Source: Nitrosopumilus sp.
GTDB lineage: Archaea; Thermoproteota; Nitrososphaeria; Nitrososphaerales; Nitrosopumilaceae
Assembly (NCBI RefSeq): GCF_025699255.1
Contig: NZ_JAILWA010000001.1
Span: 186,001 to 250,000 of the forward strand
Reading direction: 5' to 3'
Length of the DNA stretch: 64,000 nt
In this document: positions 41,972-59,135 of the stretch, piece by piece
How positions within the stretch are numbered: position 1 is the stretch's first letter
Layout of the letters: each line of letters begins with the position of its first letter
Program-made: the position numbers and the translations under genes
Notes under the pieces: model-generated
The model's database searches: none
Told to the model about the DNA's origin: nothing
The model's input: only the letters and a program-made list of their open reading frames with translations

Positions 41972-42286
41972 TTAAGGATTAATCATTTCTAATTTATCCC
42001 CAATTCGGTCATAGTAGCCATTGATTTCCATTGCAGAAATGTTAAATGTTGCAGAAACTAAATCTCCAACTTTAGCATTACAATTTGGAACAACAACAGA
42101 ATGTCCAATGACGGATTCGCCCACACAGCCATAATCAGTTATAGCAATAACGGTCACGTTTTCAGTAACAGATGTAGGAATCAAATTCCAAGGAGTTATC
42201 GTAAACACAAGTGTTACTGAAACAGCAATAGCTAAAATTGCCATAAATTTTAACTGTGGAGTTTTTTGATTTGTTGTTTGTTGCAT
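41972..42286 (-). CDS. Membrane-anchored small protein, unknown
   Basis: 104 residues. A basic/polar start is followed by a single hydrophobic segment (FMAILAIAVSVTLVFTI), then an outer domain with two Cys (DYGCVGESVIG and VVPNCNAKVG) that could form a disulphide. No family recognised. Its promoter has two CTAGTG-type elements (42324 and 42342), one with a mismatch, immediately upstream of a GATTATATTC box. This puts it in the set of genes that may share control with the B12 sensor at 50477. Confidence 0.65.
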   Translation of the reverse strand: MQQTTNQKTPQLKFMAILAIAVSVTLVFTITPWNLIPTSVTENVTVIAITDYGCVGESVIGHSVVVPNCNAKVGDLVSATFNISAMEINGYYDRIGDKLEMINP

Positions 42287-42323: not shown

Positions 42324-42353
42324 CTAGAGGTAATTTTTTAACTAGTGCCAACT
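42324..42353. promoter_or_regulatory. Paired CTAGTG elements upstream of 41972 gene
   Basis: CTAGAGGTAATT (42324-42335, one mismatch to the consensus) and CTAGTGCCAACT (42342-42353) are direct repeats 18 bp apart. They abut the TATA-like sequence of the minus-strand gene starting at 42286. They match the elements at 42753, 45767, 50337, 50420 and 51339. Confidence 0.6.
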
Positions 42354-44843: not shown

Positions 44844-45737
44844 TTACTCCAAATCTAATACTATGTTAGTACTTCCAAACGGTTCATTAATTCTGAATTG
44901 ATATGTTTTTGAAGGATCATATTCAAATTCAGTTCCACCATACCCAATGTTTGGTCCAAAGAGAATATTAAATTCTCTAGAATCACCAGGGTTAAGTACT
45001 ATTTCACCACTAGTAAAATCCATTCCAGAATACTTGTATGCTTTTGAGCCATCCCAAACATCATAGCTGCAAATAGAAGGACTTGTACAGTGAAGAGCAG
45101 TAATTTCTGAACTAGTATTCTCAGCTAACATACGAATTGATAAAATAGGTTGGCCAGAAGGACGAACTTCAAATTCATTTCCTTCAGAATTTAACCCATA
45201 CCAATAGTATGTAATTGGTCCAAGAACAAATTTTTCAGCATTGGTTTTGTATTTGTATAAAGCAATTTCTTTCTTAATGGGTTTTTCACAATCTAGTCTT
45301 TTGTATCCAACTTTAATTTCAGAACATTTGTCCAATTTGGATTCTAATACGGATAATTCAGAATCAAGATTTCCAGGGTTATAGGAAATTTGTTCTGAAT
45401 TTACAGATACAGAGACAAATCCAGATTTTATCAAATGTTGAATGCCATTTACAAATTCAGCATCAGAAATGATTCCATCTGCCCACCAAGCTGCATTGTT
45501 CTTTACCCATTCAGGCACCTTATCAGCTACTTGTGAGGATGTTGTTGTTGGAGGTACTTTTATGATTCCATCTTTAATTAAAAATGATATTCCAGTAAGG
45601 AATTCAGATTCAGAGATGGTTCCATCTGCCCACCAAGCTGCATTGTTCTTTACCCAACCAGGAACTTCTGCATGGGCAGTAGAAATGGTTGAAGCAATCA
45701 TCAGAATTGCTGCAATTGTAGTTATTGCGGTTTTCAT
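44844..45737 (-). CDS. Secreted protein with two WWADG repeats
   Basis: 297 residues with a clear signal peptide (TTIAAILMIASTISTAHA). Two copies of a repeat of about 38 residues follow: PGWVKNNAAWWADGTISESE and PEWVKNNAAWWADGIISDAE, each ending in a YLI/FLI-x-GII strand. A beta-rich C-terminal domain follows. The same repeat occurs in the protease at 56687. A TTATATATC box 21-29 bases before the ATG is directly preceded by a CTAGTGCCAA element, so this gene may be light/B12 regulated. Role of the repeat unknown. Confidence 0.75.
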   Translation of the reverse strand: MKTAITTIAAILMIASTISTAHAEVPGWVKNNAAWWADGTISESEFLTGISFLIKDGIIKVPPTTTSSQVADKVPEWVKNNAAWWADGIISDAEFVNGIQHLIKSGFVSVSVNSEQISYNPGNLDSELSVLESKLDKCSEIKVGYKRLDCEKPIKKEIALYKYKTNAEKFVLGPITYYWYGLNSEGNEFEVRPSGQPILSIRMLAENTSSEITALHCTSPSICSYDVWDGSKAYKYSGMDFTSGEIVLNPGDSREFNILFGPNIGYGGTEFEYDPSKTYQFRINEPFGSTNIVLDLE

Positions 45738-45766: not shown

Positions 45767-45828
45767 GCTAGTGCCAAATTAACAACTAGTGGTAATTTTT
45801 TATGTTGTTTGTAAGCATAGTGCCAAAT
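45767..45828. promoter_or_regulatory. Three CTAGTG-type elements between divergent genes
   Basis: CTAGTGCCAAAT (45768), CTAGTGGTAATT (45786) and ATAGTGCCAAAT (45817) lie between the secreted repeat protein (minus, start 45737) and the DUF1722 gene (plus, start 45881). The first pair is 18 bp apart; the first copy touches the minus-strand TATA box (45758-45766) and the last is about 20 bp before the plus-strand TTATATG box (45849). The site could control both genes. Confidence 0.65.
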
Positions 45829-45880: not shown

Positions 45881-46399
45881 TTGAAAAAACAAGGAAAAAT
45901 TCATACAGAAATAATCCCAGTGTCTGAAAAAAACATCATTGCGTATGTATTAGACAGATTCAAGGATGTAAAAAATGAAAAAAAAATGAAGAAACTAGTA
46001 ACATTTCAAACCACTAACAAATACATGATCATGTCACATGATCAAGAAGAGTTAAAGAAACTAGGAAACATTGTAGCAAGTAATAAAAAAATTAAATTTC
46101 AAGAAATTTTAAACGAATATGAAACACATCTGAAAAAAGCATTATACAACAAACCAACAATCAAAAAACACAGCAATGTAATATTACATATTTTCGGATA
46201 TTTTTCAAATCATTTCAATCAACAAGAAAAAGAGAAATTTTTTGATTTGCTGACTAAATTCAAAAAAGAAAAAATTACAATTGGAGAGATTCTTGCTGAA
46301 ATTAATCCCATAATTTTTCGATTTAATAATACATATCTTGCCAGTCAAACATATTTTCTGCTATATGCAAACCCAGAGCCAGGAAATTTGTTTAAATAA
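45881..46399 (+). CDS. DUF1722 (YbgA-like) protein
   Basis: 172 residues, TTG start. The DUF1722 pattern is present: LVTFQTTNKYMIMSHDQEE, ELKKLGNIVAS, KKHSNVILHIFGYFSNHFNQ and, near the end, YLASQTYFLLYANP. In bacteria DUF1722 is often fused to DUF523 and encoded with photolyase under LitR/CarH control; here neither partner is present in the window. A TTATATG box lies 26-32 bases upstream, with three CTAGTG elements in front. Function unknown; a role in light/UV response is inferred. Confidence 0.78.
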   Translation: MKKQGKIHTEIIPVSEKNIIAYVLDRFKDVKNEKKMKKLVTFQTTNKYMIMSHDQEELKKLGNIVASNKKIKFQEILNEYETHLKKALYNKPTIKKHSNVILHIFGYFSNHFNQQEKEKFFDLLTKFKKEKITIGEILAEINPIIFRFNNTYLASQTYFLLYANPEPGNLFK

Positions 46400-47671: not shown

Positions 47672-48601
47672 ATGATACCAAAAAGAATTGTTTCATTTTT
47701 ACCAAGTGCAACTGAATTATTATACGAATTAGAAGAGCAAGATAAAATTTTTGGAGTGACACATGAATGCAGATATCCACAAGAGGCATCTTTAAAACCC
47801 AAGATCATCAACACCGTAATTAATTCTGAAAAATTATCCAGTAAAGAGATCAATTCAACTACATGTAAATTACTAAATGAAGGTAAAGATATTTTTGTTT
47901 TAAATGAAGCAAATTTGAAAAAAGCAAATCCAGATATGATAATTTCTCAAGAAACATGTGAAGTGTGTGCAGCATATACTAATCAAGTAAATAACGCAGT
48001 AAAAATTCTAGATACAAAACCAATTGTGTATTCCATGGACCCTCACAACATGGATGAAATTATTGAATCAGTAACAAAAATGGGAGAAATTTTAAACTGT
48101 AAAGAAAAAGCTGGACAAATAACAAATTTGCTTGAAAAAAGAATTAGACATATTCAAAATAACAAAGGTCTAAAAAAACCAAAAGTAGTAGCAATCGAAT
48201 GGATTGAACCATTTTTTACTGCAGGGCATTGGATTCCAGAGATGATCGAAATAGCAGGAGGGACAAACATGATAAGCCATCCAGGAGAGCATTCAAGACG
48301 ATTAGACTTTAAAGAAATTGAAGAAGCAAATCCAGATATCATCATCTTAATGCCATGTGGTTTTGACATCCAACGAACAATTTCTGAGTACAATGAAACT
48401 CTAAAAAACAACAACAGATGGAGAACATTGAACGCATTTAAAACAGGTCAAATTTATGCAGTAGATGCAAATTCATTTTTTAGCAAACCCAGCATTAGAA
48501 CAATTGACGGAACTGAAATTCTTGCCAAAATCATACATCCCAAAGAATTTGTTAATGTAAAAATTCCCGAGAAGGCATTTGCACATATTGGAAATAACTA
48601 A
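47672..48601 (+). CDS. BtuF-like cobalamin-binding protein without signal peptide
   Basis: 309 residues of the TroA/BtuF clamshell superfamily: RIVSFLPSATELLYEL, FGVTHECRYP, NPDMIISQETCEVCAAY and AVDANSFFSKPS. There is no signal peptide or lipobox, so it would be cytoplasmic, unlike transport BtuF. Thaumarchaea make cobalamin, so a storage, delivery or salvage role for the vitamin is possible. It lies between nreA and the SDR gene, 1.9 kb before the B12-sensor gene at 50477, with a GTTTAAATG box 21-29 bases upstream. Confidence 0.8.
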   Translation: MIPKRIVSFLPSATELLYELEEQDKIFGVTHECRYPQEASLKPKIINTVINSEKLSSKEINSTTCKLLNEGKDIFVLNEANLKKANPDMIISQETCEVCAAYTNQVNNAVKILDTKPIVYSMDPHNMDEIIESVTKMGEILNCKEKAGQITNLLEKRIRHIQNNKGLKKPKVVAIEWIEPFFTAGHWIPEMIEIAGGTNMISHPGEHSRRLDFKEIEEANPDIIILMPCGFDIQRTISEYNETLKNNNRWRTLNAFKTGQIYAVDANSFFSKPSIRTIDGTEILAKIIHPKEFVNVKIPEKAFAHIGNN

Positions 48602-48778: not shown

Positions 48779-50158
48779 TTAGATAGGTTTTCCTTTGAAC
48801 TGATAATCTATCACTTTATGGAATAAATTATGCGAAGCAATCACAGTAATTATTGCAACTACAATTCCAACAAAATTTCTAATAGTCATTAACTCATTGG
48901 GTTGTGAAGCAATCAAAGAAGTTTGAAAGACCACATAGAAATTATCAAACAACCAAAAAGCCAGAGTCACCCAAGATAAAACTCCAGAAATAAAATATCC
49001 TAAACGAGTTTTTTTTCTAATGAAAAGTATAGATGTAAAAATAGTAGCGTACCACACAAAAGAAGCAAACAACCAAAAAGAATGATAGTCTTCAGGTCGA
49101 TCATCTAACCAATAGTATGATGTTCCAATTAATGCTAAAATAATTAATGAAATTTGTATAATTGTTTGATTTATTTTAAAACCAGTTTTTTCTTCTTTCA
49201 ATTCTAATTTGGGAGGAAATAATTCCATTTCTTTTGTAGCTATATCGATAGAATCATGAACAGTTTTTAGTTTGTTTGGAATAATTTTTGTAATTTTCTC
49301 ATTAGTTACAACTGTATCATGTACAAGACTATCAATAAGAGGTCTTGCAAGGGATGCTTTAACTGGTGTTATCAGATCAACCCAATAAGAAGAAAGTCGA
49401 GTTGTTAGAAAAGGAATTTGAAGTACAAACAAATGCTTGTTCAAGTATTTAGCATAAAGTCTCATCAATTCTTCGTAAGTCATTTTTTCAGGACCGCCGA
49501 TTTCAAAAATTTCTCCTATAGTTTCAGGTTTTGCAAGACATTCAGCCAAATAAAAAACGACATCATCAACTGCAATAGGTTGTGCCATGGATTTCACCCA
49601 TGAGGGACAAACCATTACAGGCAATCTCTCTACCAGATAACGCAGCATGGCATAAGAGCCTCCTTGCGCACCAATAATCAAAGATGCTCTAAATTCAGTT
49701 ACAGGAATGCTACCAGATGCAAGTATTTCACCCACCTCCTTCCTACTTTTCATATGAGGAGATAAGTCTAGACTATCATTTACTAATCCACCAAGGTAAA
49801 TGATTCGTTTGACCCCAGCTTTTGTTGCAGATTCAAGAAAGTTTTGAGCTTGAATTCTTTCACGGGATGCAAACTCTTGCCATTGATCTTTATTTCCTTC
49901 CATAGAATGCAACAAATAATATGCAACTTCTATTCCTTTCATTGATTCATATAATTGGTTTTTATCAAAAACATCAGTTTGTACATATTTGATATTTTTT
50001 GTGTTAGGTATTTTTTTTCTTGTTAAACCAGTAACAGTATATCCATGAGAAGTAAGTAATGAGATTAATCTAGAACCGATAAAACCGGTTGAACCGGATA
50101 CCAATATAGAAAAAGGAGAGGATTGAGCAATCAAATTACTTGATAAAATTTGTTTCAT
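48779..50158 (-). CDS. NAD(P)-binding SDR/NmrA-like protein fused to a four-helix membrane domain
   Basis: 459 residues. Residues about 17-290 form an extended/atypical SDR: the nucleotide loop is VSGSTGFIGSRLI, then YYLLHSMEGNKDQW replaces the usual YxxxK region, and RASLIIGAQGGSYAML follows. The last 140 residues have four hydrophobic segments (ISLIILALIGTSYYW, FASFVWYATIFTSILF, GVLSWVTLAFWLF, VGIVVAIITVIAS), probably a membrane anchor with its own function. NAD-binding SDR proteins with the LLHSM signature occur in bacterial light-responsive clusters. It is divergent from the B12 sensor. Confidence 0.8.
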   Translation of the reverse strand: MKQILSSNLIAQSSPFSILVSGSTGFIGSRLISLLTSHGYTVTGLTRKKIPNTKNIKYVQTDVFDKNQLYESMKGIEVAYYLLHSMEGNKDQWQEFASRERIQAQNFLESATKAGVKRIIYLGGLVNDSLDLSPHMKSRKEVGEILASGSIPVTEFRASLIIGAQGGSYAMLRYLVERLPVMVCPSWVKSMAQPIAVDDVVFYLAECLAKPETIGEIFEIGGPEKMTYEELMRLYAKYLNKHLFVLQIPFLTTRLSSYWVDLITPVKASLARPLIDSLVHDTVVTNEKITKIIPNKLKTVHDSIDIATKEMELFPPKLELKEEKTGFKINQTIIQISLIILALIGTSYYWLDDRPEDYHSFWLFASFVWYATIFTSILFIRKKTRLGYFISGVLSWVTLAFWLFDNFYVVFQTSLIASQPNELMTIRNFVGIVVAIITVIASHNLFHKVIDYQFKGKPI

Positions 50159-50336
50159 TATTATCTTAGTGTCCCTAGTTGTTTTTGTTGTTTAACTCTT
50201 AATCCAAATACAATCACAACAGAACACATATCAAACAAAGATGCCTCCCTTCAAAAATAAAATTGAACAAATGTGTTGCTCATCATCGCTCAGCATGTTA
50301 TTGTTCATGAACTATTTTTTCTATCAAATTATTTAA

Positions 50337-50368
50337 ACTAGTGTTAATTAAAATAGCTAGTGGTAATT
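50337..50368. promoter_or_regulatory. Paired CTAGTG elements, distal pair upstream of B12 sensor
   Basis: CTAGTGTTAATT (50338) and CTAGTGGTAATT (50357) are direct repeats 19 bp apart. They sit in the 318-base gap between the divergent SDR gene (start 50158) and the B12-sensor gene (start 50477). The remainder of this gap has only a 31-codon frame (from about 50240) that I do not support. Confidence 0.6.
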
Positions 50369-50419: not shown

Positions 50420-50450
50420 TTGGCACTATAAAATTATTTTAGCACCAGTT
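50420..50450. promoter_or_regulatory. Paired CTAGTG elements (reverse orientation), proximal to B12 sensor
   Basis: TTGGCACTAT (50420-50429) and TTAGCACCAG (50439-50448, one mismatch) are complements of the element, again 19 bp apart. The second one touches the GTTAAATAC box (50448-50456) of the B12-sensor gene. Its position is suitable for a repressor or activator at that promoter, so the sensor may control itself. Confidence 0.58.
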
Positions 50451-50476: not shown

Positions 50477-51319
50477 ATGGTATATATCAGAGCCAAAAAA
50501 GTAAAATCGGATCAATACCTATATTTGGTAAAAAGTGTATGGAATTCTAAAAAAAAGACATCAAAACAAGAGATTGTAAAATACCTTGGAAAGGCAACTG
50601 ATGTGATTAAAGATGACATCCCAATAGAATACAGAAACGATCCTAAAGTATTGTCAGTACTAGCATCATTTAATCCAAAAGATATTAAAAAAAGAGAAGA
50701 AGCTACAAGGAAATCAAAAAAACAAATTTATAAAAAATTGACAGAAGGAAATATTGAAGAATGCGTTAAAATCTATGAAGAATATGTTAAAATTTTTAAT
50801 GCTTCAGATTTCTTTGATAAAATTTTAAAACCAGTAATGTATGATATTGGAGAAGATTGGTCAAGTAACAAAATAAGCATTGCAACGGAACATGTAGCTA
50901 GCAACATTGCTCAGACATTAGTTAAAATTATCATGGACAAAGTTTCAGGTTCATCCAATAAGAAAAAAATCCTCATATGTGTTCCGTTAGGAGAAGAACA
51001 TCATTTAGGATGTGATGTGTTGGAAACATATCTTACAATAAAAGGATACAAAGTTTACAACATGGCAACATCAATGCCTACAGAATCAATAATTAATTTC
51101 ATTGAAAACAACAAACCAGATATTGTATTCATATCCATAACACTCTCAGACAATATTTCTGCAGGTCAAAGACTAGTAAAAAAAATACAAGCAGAGTTTT
51201 CCATTCCAATTTTGGTTGGAGGATATGCAATGCAGAAAGAAAAAATTCCAAAATTTGATGCCAAAGTAATTTCAAATGTAAATTTGGACGAAATGCCCAA
51301 AATCATCAGAACAACATAA
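50477..51319 (+). CDS. B12-binding sensor with CarH/LitR-type signatures, no MerR domain
   Basis: 280 residues. Residues ~80-150 form the B12 cap helical domain with the CarH photoreceptor motif W128-x9-E138-H139 (DWSSNKISIATEH). Residues ~160-280 form the Rossmann B12 domain with E173-x-H175-x2-G178 in GEEHHLG, whose His would bind cobalt from below, and a GG turn at 248-249. CarH uses these residues for adenosylcobalamin light sensing. The MerR helix-turn-helix is missing; residues 1-45 (YLYLVKSVWNSKKKTSKQEI) form a basic beta-type domain recalling transposase N-termini. Four operator-like elements precede the gene. Confidence 0.85.
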   Translation: MVYIRAKKVKSDQYLYLVKSVWNSKKKTSKQEIVKYLGKATDVIKDDIPIEYRNDPKVLSVLASFNPKDIKKREEATRKSKKQIYKKLTEGNIEECVKIYEEYVKIFNASDFFDKILKPVMYDIGEDWSSNKISIATEHVASNIAQTLVKIIMDKVSGSSNKKKILICVPLGEEHHLGCDVLETYLTIKGYKVYNMATSMPTESIINFIENNKPDIVFISITLSDNISAGQRLVKKIQAEFSIPILVGGYAMQKEKIPKFDAKVISNVNLDEMPKIIRTT

Positions 51320-51338: not shown

Positions 51339-51392
51339 ACTAGTGCCAAAAAATAATCAAATATACAAAAAACAACTACATATTAGCACTAG
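51339..51392. promoter_or_regulatory. CTAGTG elements upstream of the divergent TFB
   Basis: CACTAGTGCCAAAA (51338-51351, containing the palindrome CACTAGTG) and the reverse copy TTAGCACTAG (51383-51392) flank a 31-base AT-rich stretch. The second lies about 18 bp before the CTTAAATAAT box (51411-51420), which is 20-29 bases before the TFB start. Confidence 0.62.
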
Positions 51393-51439: not shown

Positions 51440-52351
51440 ATGATATCAGAATTAATACATCAAAAAAACTGTAAAAAGAACAAAGTGATCACAGACATAC
51501 ACACAGGAGAAGTAGCATGTAGTACTTGCGGAGTAGTATCATTAGAAAAAATGATTGATGTTAACGCAGAAATTAGTGGCCTTAGTGCAGAGGATTTTCA
51601 AAATAATTCTAGACTAGGCATGAAAACATCATTGAAAATGGCAGATAGAGGGCTATCAACAATAATGGAATCTCAAGATAAAGATGTTACAGGCAAATCA
51701 TTGTCAAATGAAAATCGCAGAATGTTTTACCGTTTGAGGATGTGGGATAGAAATAGTCGTTCTGCAATATCTGTTAAATCGTTTCAAAAAGCATTTACAC
51801 TGTTAGACGGAATAAGTTCAAAATTAGCTTTGCCAGAATCAGTGGTTGAAGAAACAGCATATTTATTTCGAAAAATTGCTGCTAAAAAAATTCTTGCAGG
51901 AAGATCAACATCATCCATGTTATGTGCGACAGTTTACATTACATGTAGATTATCAGACACTCCAAGAACACTACAAGATGTTGCAAATGCAGGAAACATA
52001 AAAAAGAAAAATTTGCAAAGAATATACAGATTTTTAGTAAAAGAGTTAGATTTACACCCTGATGTGTATAATCCAAGTGAATTCATTACAAGAATAGCAA
52101 AAGCAGTGAAGTTATCAGAGAAAACTGAAAGGCTAGCTTTTAAAATTTTAAATCATGCATCAGAGAAAAATATTTCAACTAGTAAAAATCCAATGGCAAT
52201 GGCAGCTGCTGCAATTCATTTAGCTGCATCAATAAATGAAGAAAGAATTTCTCAGTTAAAAATTTCAGCAGCTTCTGGTATTAGTGCAGTCACCATAAGA
52301 GACAGAACTAGGGAAATTAAAGAAAAGATAGGAGGTGAGATTTATGGGTAG
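51440..52351 (+). CDS. tfb: Divergent TFB paralogue
   Basis: 303 residues with two complete cyclin-fold repeats and a recognisable core (RGLSTIMESQDKDVTGKSLS, RSTSSMLCATVYITCRLSDT). The zinc ribbon is incomplete: C11, C27 and C30 are present, but the first ligand is Gln8 (His7 is adjacent). The B-reader/linker is also changed (DVNAEISGLSAEDFQNNSR instead of GPEWRSF). It may support a special promoter class. It lies 120 bases after the B12 sensor under CTAGTG elements. The zinc-finger gene overlaps its 3' end by eight bases. Confidence 0.93.
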   Translation: MISELIHQKNCKKNKVITDIHTGEVACSTCGVVSLEKMIDVNAEISGLSAEDFQNNSRLGMKTSLKMADRGLSTIMESQDKDVTGKSLSNENRRMFYRLRMWDRNSRSAISVKSFQKAFTLLDGISSKLALPESVVEETAYLFRKIAAKKILAGRSTSSMLCATVYITCRLSDTPRTLQDVANAGNIKKKNLQRIYRFLVKELDLHPDVYNPSEFITRIAKAVKLSEKTERLAFKILNHASEKNISTSKNPMAMAAAAIHLAASINEERISQLKISAASGISAVTIRDRTREIKEKIGGEIYG

Positions 52352-58105: not shown

Positions 58106-58223
58106 TCATAAAATCGGATCATGTTCTAAAATATGAGAATAAGGATTAGCTCAACCTACACACAATTAACCTGCAGATATTTGGTAAAATGGATAATAAG
58201 GCATTTTGATAATAATTAACATT

Positions 58224-59135
58224 ATGCTCAAAAACACTATGGTTACAGGACCAAAATGCCCATCATGTGGAGACAAAAAAATGGTCACAGATCAAAATAC
58301 AGGAGAATTGTTCTGCAGTAAATGCGGACTAGTTGTAACAGACAAAATTGCAGATACTGGAGCTGAATGGCGTTCATTTTCAAATGATGAAGGTAACAAA
58401 GCCAGAACAGGTGCAGGAACATCACTTACTATGCACGACATGGGATTATCAACAGTAATTGGTGCTGCAAATAAAGATGCAACAGGAAAACCATTATCGG
58501 CAAGTGTTAAAAGTTCAATTGAAAGACTAAGAACTTGGGACAGTAGAAGTCAAGCACATTCCTCTGCAGATAGAAATTTGAGACAAGCATTAAACGAAAT
58601 GGACAAATTAAAAGATAAACTTGCATTAACTGATGCGGTAATTGAAAAGGCAGCATACATTTACAGAAAAGCCATGGAGAAAAAATTAGTTAGAGGTCGT
58701 TCAATCCAAGGATTAGTAGCTGCATGTCTTTATGCATCTTGTAGAAACACAGAAACACCACGAACGTTGGACGATATTGCAAAGGGGATAAACATTAGAA
58801 GAAAAGATGTTGCCAGATGTTATCGATTAATTTTTAGAGAATTAGAATTAAAAATGCCGGTTGTTGATCCTGTGAAAGGAGTTTCAAGAATTGCAAGCAT
58901 TGCAGAATTGAGCGAAAAAAGTAAAAGAAAAGCAATTGCAATTTTAAATCAAGCAAAAGATATCGGAATGGTGGCAGGAAAGGATCCAATGGGAATTGCA
59001 GCAGCAGCGCTTTATCTTGCATGTATCAGCACAGGAGAAGTGAAATCGCAAAAAGATATTTCAATTGCATCAGGAGTTACAGAAGTAACCATTAGAAATA
59101 GATGTGCAGGCTTGAGACAAATGCTTAAAGATTAA
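58224..59135 (+). CDS. tfb: Transcription initiation factor TFB
   Basis: About 303 residues with an intact zinc ribbon (KCPSCGDKKM and FCSKCGLVVT), the B-reader/linker (GAEWRSFSNDEGNKARTG), and two cyclin folds ending in the BRE-reading helix (GVTEVTIRNRCAG). It is close to the TFB at 30114. ATG 58224 is preferred to TTG 58206. ATG 58239 is possible. It is a single gene, so it has its own promoter; third TFB in the window. Confidence 0.96.
   Translation: MLKNTMVTGPKCPSCGDKKMVTDQNTGELFCSKCGLVVTDKIADTGAEWRSFSNDEGNKARTGAGTSLTMHDMGLSTVIGAANKDATGKPLSASVKSSIERLRTWDSRSQAHSSADRNLRQALNEMDKLKDKLALTDAVIEKAAYIYRKAMEKKLVRGRSIQGLVAACLYASCRNTETPRTLDDIAKGINIRRKDVARCYRLIFRELELKMPVVDPVKGVSRIASIAELSEKSKRKAIAILNQAKDIGMVAGKDPMGIAAAALYLACISTGEVKSQKDISIASGVTEVTIRNRCAGLRQMLKD

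Follow-up and report, generated by a model that had tools for sequence, protein, structure and literature searches.

CarH and LitR, represented here by T. thermophilus CarH and class II LitR, are the closest described systems: in these bacterial regulators a MerR helix-turn-helix is combined with a four-helix and Rossmann B12 module that carries the motifs W-x9-EH and ExHx2G...SxT...GG. PMC9304148 gives the B12 motif as D/ExHx2G/Px41SxT/Vx22-27GG and describes CarH operators as tandem direct repeats over the core promoter. The repeats are contiguous, 11 bp long and of the form TnnACA, and they serve the regulator's own promoter as well as divergent ones. The neighbours of these genes include photolyase, DUF1722/RudS, carotenoid enzymes and SDR; around carH of T. 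thermophilus we find photolyase, carotenoid genes and SDR-type genes, and in Pseudomonas one operon holds PhrB, a B12-dependent LitR and RudS, a TudS-DUF1722 tRNA s4U desulfidase (PMC11417400). Photocobilins share the W, EH and ExH residues and carry a C-terminal globin/bilin domain.

The gene described here comes from Nitrosopumilus sp. and lies at 50477..51319 on the plus strand of the window, by which we mean the whole stretch of 64,000 nucleotides that was analysed and to which all coordinates refer unless another locus is named. It starts with ATG and encodes 280 aa, a candidate B12 photoreceptor and transcription regulator that is CarH-like and non-MerR. Pfam recognises a four-helix B12-binding_2 domain (PF02607) at residues 82-152 (50720..50932, plus strand; E 1.1e-11) and a B12-binding domain (PF02310) at 165-253 (E 8.8e-12), the latter within a Rossmann-type domain that by its fold match extends over residues 162-280 (50960..51316, plus strand). 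The earlier note had read two ligand motifs from the sequence, and the translation places W128, E138, H139, E173, H175 and G178 exactly where it had put them: W128-x9-E138-H139, the motif of the adenosyl pocket, at 50858..50893, and E173-x-H175-x2-G178, that of the lower axial His, at 50993..51010, both on the plus strand. S220-x-T222 and G248-G249 are also present, which gives the full B12 motif as ExHx2Gx41SxTx25GG, with the spacing counted on the translation.

Among NCBIfam models the best match of the protein is CarH (E 1e-17), aligned only over residues 80-268, where the score of 64.3 bits falls far below the 400-bit cut-off of the CarH equivalog NF052513. AlphaFold2, run with the family alignment, predicts with a mean pLDDT of 88.5 three strands, then a helix-containing linker, followed by a helix bundle and a Rossmann domain. 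Foldseek finds photocobilin and CarH as the closest folds to residues 80-280 of the predicted model (E about 1e-12), CarH chains matching at E about 1e-11 to 1e-12 with both the helix bundle and the Rossmann fold; photocobilin and CarH are also the best solved relatives, and the photocobilin module is the best match both in fold and in PDB sequence. Unlike photocobilins, the archaeal protein ends at the Rossmann domain and has an N-terminal beta-sheet domain instead of the globin/bilin domain. Compared with CarH/LitR, it is an archaeal protein without a MerR helix-turn-helix, it is associated with archaeal TATA/BRE promoters, and the identity of the B12 module is about 20%. The bis-His light state of T. 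thermophilus CarH uses a His after the Trp, a position held here by S129 and in the family by Ala, Glu, Ser and others; the Arg adjoining the ligand His in that protein is absent in the pairwise alignment, and the oligomer may therefore differ from that of CarH. Since the defining DNA-binding domain was looked for and is absent, the protein falls outside the MerR-type CarH/LitR family; as far as the present evidence goes, it works like CarH.

The N-terminal domain (residues 1-39; 50477..50593, plus strand) is a candidate DNA-binding domain. Residues 1-80 have no significant Pfam match, to MerR or to any other family, and structure prediction gives a three-stranded antiparallel sheet with strands at 2-9, 12-23 and 28-39, a fold that is retained when the domain is modelled alone; the non-MerR character proposed earlier is thus confirmed. 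The domain can be placed further than the earlier note had done, as a beta-sheet domain common to IS1634 transposases: its profile relatives are the N-termini of an IS1634-type transposase and of Fic proteins, and small stand-alone proteins in other archaea of the phylum. The transposase with the profile match at its N-terminus comes from the genome of a distant relative, and the pattern IR-x-K...YxYLV...Q...YLG is shared with the N-termini of IS1634-family transposases. These enzymes have a DDE catalytic domain, which is absent here, the N-domain being fused to the B12 module instead; the protein is not itself an IS1634 transposase, as only the N-domain is common. We infer that a domain of this sort binds DNA in the transposases. 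Searches of the N-domain against Pfam, PDB sequences and PDB folds (Foldseek, VIA-align) returned nothing convincing; chains resembling ribosomal protein bS16 and PC4 came out best, with Z up to 4.6, and were treated as common small arrangements. The Fic-domain proteins with a related N-terminus (L122:5434-6321, L123:5206-6093, L124:6002-6895 and L125:351-1244) belong to genomes of one genus that are without the photoreceptor gene.

The family is found in 45 of 73 related genomes, as classed from a profile search with the N-domain, and also in many Nitrosopumilus-like assemblies, the cultured Ca. Nitrosopumilus salaria BD31 being one of the carriers; members from other genera and two further families are 33-55% identical. 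In an alignment of 62 sequences, H175, G125, N143, P201 and GG are invariant, and W128, E138 and H139 are kept in all but one. The exception is L083 (6002-6865, minus strand), a second family copy in one Nitrosopumilus-type genome and not the gene of the window, which has lost the W, E and H of W-x9-EH, retains the ExH ligand motif and the N-domain, and lacks the operator. It looks like a degenerate paralogue, possibly light-blind and reminiscent of CarA of Myxococcus xanthus, in which the Trp is likewise lost; CarA, however, keeps EH (PMC9304148). The other B12-domain protein found in the window's own genome by the same search, an 840-codon frame, aligns with the family without having the W and EH, so W-x9-EH is not a general property of B12 domains in this genome.

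Word counts upstream of the family's genes show a strong enrichment around CTAGTG/CACTAG, and the CTAGTG element of the earlier note is real, being one half of a larger conserved direct repeat. The consensus of this candidate operator is TTAGCACTAg-N9-TTAGCA[tc]TA, also written TTAGCACTAG-N9-TTAGCATTA, followed by GTTATATA, a TATA-like box. Counted from the start codon, the two repeats begin at about -57 and -38, with a period of 19 bp (18 bp in some cases), and the proximal one abuts the TATA box without a gap. The pair is present in 64 of 76 homologue upstream regions and in none of 50 shuffles; of the 20 whose proteins are less than 56% identical, 13 have it, and it is seen even at 33% identity. 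Chance or phylogenetic inertia alone does not account for an element that persists at 33-55% protein identity. The likeness to CarH/LitR is one of kind only, a direct-repeat operator at the core promoters of the regulator's own and target genes to which binding is putative; the sequence differs, and so does the period, the archaeal repeats of about 10 bp recurring every 18-19 bp where the bacterial ones are contiguous.

In the window, the candidate operator of the gene itself, TTGGCACTA-N10-TTAGCACCA followed by the TATA-like GTTAAATA, lies at 50420..50447 on the plus strand, and a second, TTACCACTA-N10-TTAACACTA at 50339..50366 on the minus strand, faces a divergent SDR gene; these two are the only matches to the strict 19-bp pattern in the genome. 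The 18-bp version adds the promoter of a secreted-protein gene and one place on contig 8, and the regulon given here for this genome is the one derived from pattern searches only. Across genomes, the 19-bp pattern occurs in 21 of 25 gene-positive and 1 of 28 gene-negative genomes (p 8e-10, a value that, like any from genomes so related, overstates their independence), with a single match for the reversed control; within the genus the contrast is 13/13 against 0/9. The 18-bp pattern is not equally specific: its reversed control gives about nine matches in 73 genomes, and lone 18-bp matches in G287, G291 and G215 are for this reason taken as background. One gene-negative genome, G397, has the SDR, a photolyase and two operator pairs and no copy of the gene in its 120-contig assembly, through either an assembly gap or loss. 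Where the gene is lost the island as a whole is lost with it, so operator loss alone is no proof of which factor binds.

The divergent partner of the photoreceptor gene (48779..50158, minus strand), an NmrA/epimerase-like SDR by Pfam, has 459 aa and C-terminal hydrophobic, probably membrane, segments. Some 180 bp separate its operator from its start (50158-50338, minus strand), and this interval holds a short ORF, about 25 codons long, at the usual distance of 30 bp; several relatives have a gene for an 80-aa membrane protein at this place. In one relative (G358:C151:13143-14467) the SDR gene is broken by stops beside an intact photoreceptor gene. The secreted protein (44844..45737, minus strand), with WVKNNAxWWADG repeats, is a predicted regulon member by the position of its tandem candidate operator with 18-bp spacing (45769..45795, minus strand; further half-site at 45817-45826), which here and in many relatives lies about 30 bp upstream of the ATG. 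A 104-aa membrane or secreted protein (41972..42286, minus strand) is likewise predicted to belong; it has a half-site at 42342-42351, and the relatives L162 and L219 carry the full repeat. A stand-alone DUF1722 protein (YbgA-like; 45881..46399, plus strand; NCBIfam PRK10167, E 4e-20) is part of the light-associated island. In relatives, the element stands about 30 bp upstream of the starts of genes for the SDR, the secreted protein, small membrane proteins and a FAD enzyme of the phytoene-desaturase/amine-oxidase type, CrtI-like; a search of the window's own genome found no desaturase-like enzyme and no photolyase. The island of relatives further includes a WelO5-like Fe(II)/2OG halogenase/oxygenase family protein (L214:11050-11829) and a recurrent protein that weakly matches the DICT sensory domain (L212:16006-16551 and relatives, cluster c13) and is sometimes found behind an operator.

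Two TFB genes lie within 8 kb, at 51440-52351 and 58206-59135. The one next to the photoreceptor gene (51440..52351, plus strand; Pfam TFIIB) is clearly the more divergent, with 248 bits against 358 for the other, and only single TTRGCACTAG half-sites (51340-51349, minus strand; 51383-51392, plus strand) stand upstream of it; we list it as a possible partner or target. Bacteria have LitR-sigma pairs, and by analogy this TFB is possibly a light-linked initiation factor.

Several of these genes co-occur with the photoreceptor gene. The SDR is present in 38 of 45 gene-positive and 2 of 28 gene-negative genomes, DUF1722 (PF08349) in 30/45 and 1/28, and an 8-HDF photolyase in 16/45 and 1/28, lying within 10 kb of the photoreceptor gene in 12 of those 16; within the genus, the SDR and DUF1722 are found in 19 of 19 gene-positive and 0 of 9 gene-negative genomes, a contrast that reduces the effect of relatedness without removing it. 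Among gene-negative genomes, only G397 retains a direct orthologue of the secreted protein. DUF1722 and the 8-HDF photolyase belong to the light-response set that CarH/LitR control in bacteria.

Motif, predicted fold, family conservation, operator conservation and regulon context agree with the earlier proposal of a CarH/LitR-type AdoCbl module without MerR, and we consider it likely that the protein regulates transcription in response to light through AdoCbl, in the manner of CarH, with a DNA-binding domain that is not MerR. Residues 80-280 would bind adenosylcobalamin base-off/His-on, with H175 as the ligand, and W128 and E138-H139 would keep the adenosyl group in place; green, blue or near-UV light would break the Co-C bond and change the oligomeric state, as in CarH. 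Residues 1-45, with the IS1634-type three-stranded sheet, would bind the TTAGCACTAG direct repeats head-to-tail. Because the proximal repeat covers the BRE position, which adjoins the TATA box on its upstream side, the dark AdoCbl form would most likely block TBP/TFB there, repressing the gene that encodes it together with photoprotection genes (those for the SDR, the secreted protein and the desaturase-like enzyme), with DUF1722 and photolyase perhaps affected indirectly, until light releases the protein from the repeats. We infer repression in preference to activation and, given that the protein is a regulator, lean moderately towards that sign.

The main rival for the sign of regulation is an activator, responding to light or oxidative stress, that would bind just upstream of BRE/TATA and recruit either TBP/TFB or the TFB paralogue encoded beside it. 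Archaeal activators that sit upstream of BRE would also account for the unvarying distance from repeat to TATA box, and the divergent TFB gene adjoins; however, the proximal repeat touches the TATA box directly, which is the place that bacterial CarH/LitR repressors take with respect to the core promoter, and the CarH and LitR proteins described in PMC11417400 and PMC9304148 are dark repressors. We hold activation to be rather unlikely, an estimate that overlaps with that for the light-responsive regulator, as the role of the protein is the same and only the sign is opposite.

The same domain layout could instead report AdoCbl supply, the operator then responding to B12 or redox state. Bacterial apo-CarH, too, differs from the AdoCbl form (PMC9304148), and a gene for a BtuF/TroA-like binding protein (47672-48601) is nearby in many relatives. 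Against this, no operator pair is seen before the BtuF-like gene, W-x9-EH is the photoreceptor signature, ammonia-oxidising archaea are considered to synthesise B12 themselves (PMC7554672), and what co-occurs is not B12 genes but those for photolyase, DUF1722 and a carotenoid-desaturase-like enzyme. Since the neighbours are photoprotection genes and B12 is held to be self-made, a sensor of B12 status is less supported than one of light, and we regard it as improbable.

We give a similarly small chance to the operator being read by another factor, for instance by the adjacent TFB paralogue as a special BRE; the B12 protein would then work through contacts with other proteins or carry a corrinoid. 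The proximal repeat does lie at the BRE position, a TFB paralogue of divergent sequence is nearby in many loci, and protein-protein contacts are the mode of action of some photocobilins (PMC10979010). Two repeats with a fixed period of 18-19 bp are nevertheless unlike a BRE, no methyltransferase gene was recognised beside the photoreceptor gene, and in the distant f2 lineage the element still precedes the photoreceptor gene although the further genes of the island that were looked for there (SDR, DUF1722 and photolyase) are all missing. A corrinoid methyltransferase partner of the MtaC/MtbC type is rejected, as W-x9-EH is present, the recognised conserved neighbours include no methyltransferase and its NCBIfam scores are below that of CarH.

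In open-licence literature searched as full text, we found no publication that names a B12 photoreceptor in ammonia-oxidising archaea or describes an archaeal member, and two sequence-mining papers, PMC10979010 among them, do not mention archaea. We see a slightly better than even chance that this is the first B12-based photoreceptor of Archaea, in which an AdoCbl switch with a transposase-type DNA-binding domain would act through 19-bp-spaced repeats at the TATA box on a photoprotection regulon. If this is true, the light module of CarH works with a DNA-binding domain other than MerR, and the protein would offer a compact archaeal variant for green-light optogenetics. Marine ammonia-oxidising archaea probably possess a gene switch that is controlled by light and built in a new way. 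It has long been asked why and how light limits these archaea, and with one gene, one operator and a short list of predicted targets the question becomes directly testable in culture.
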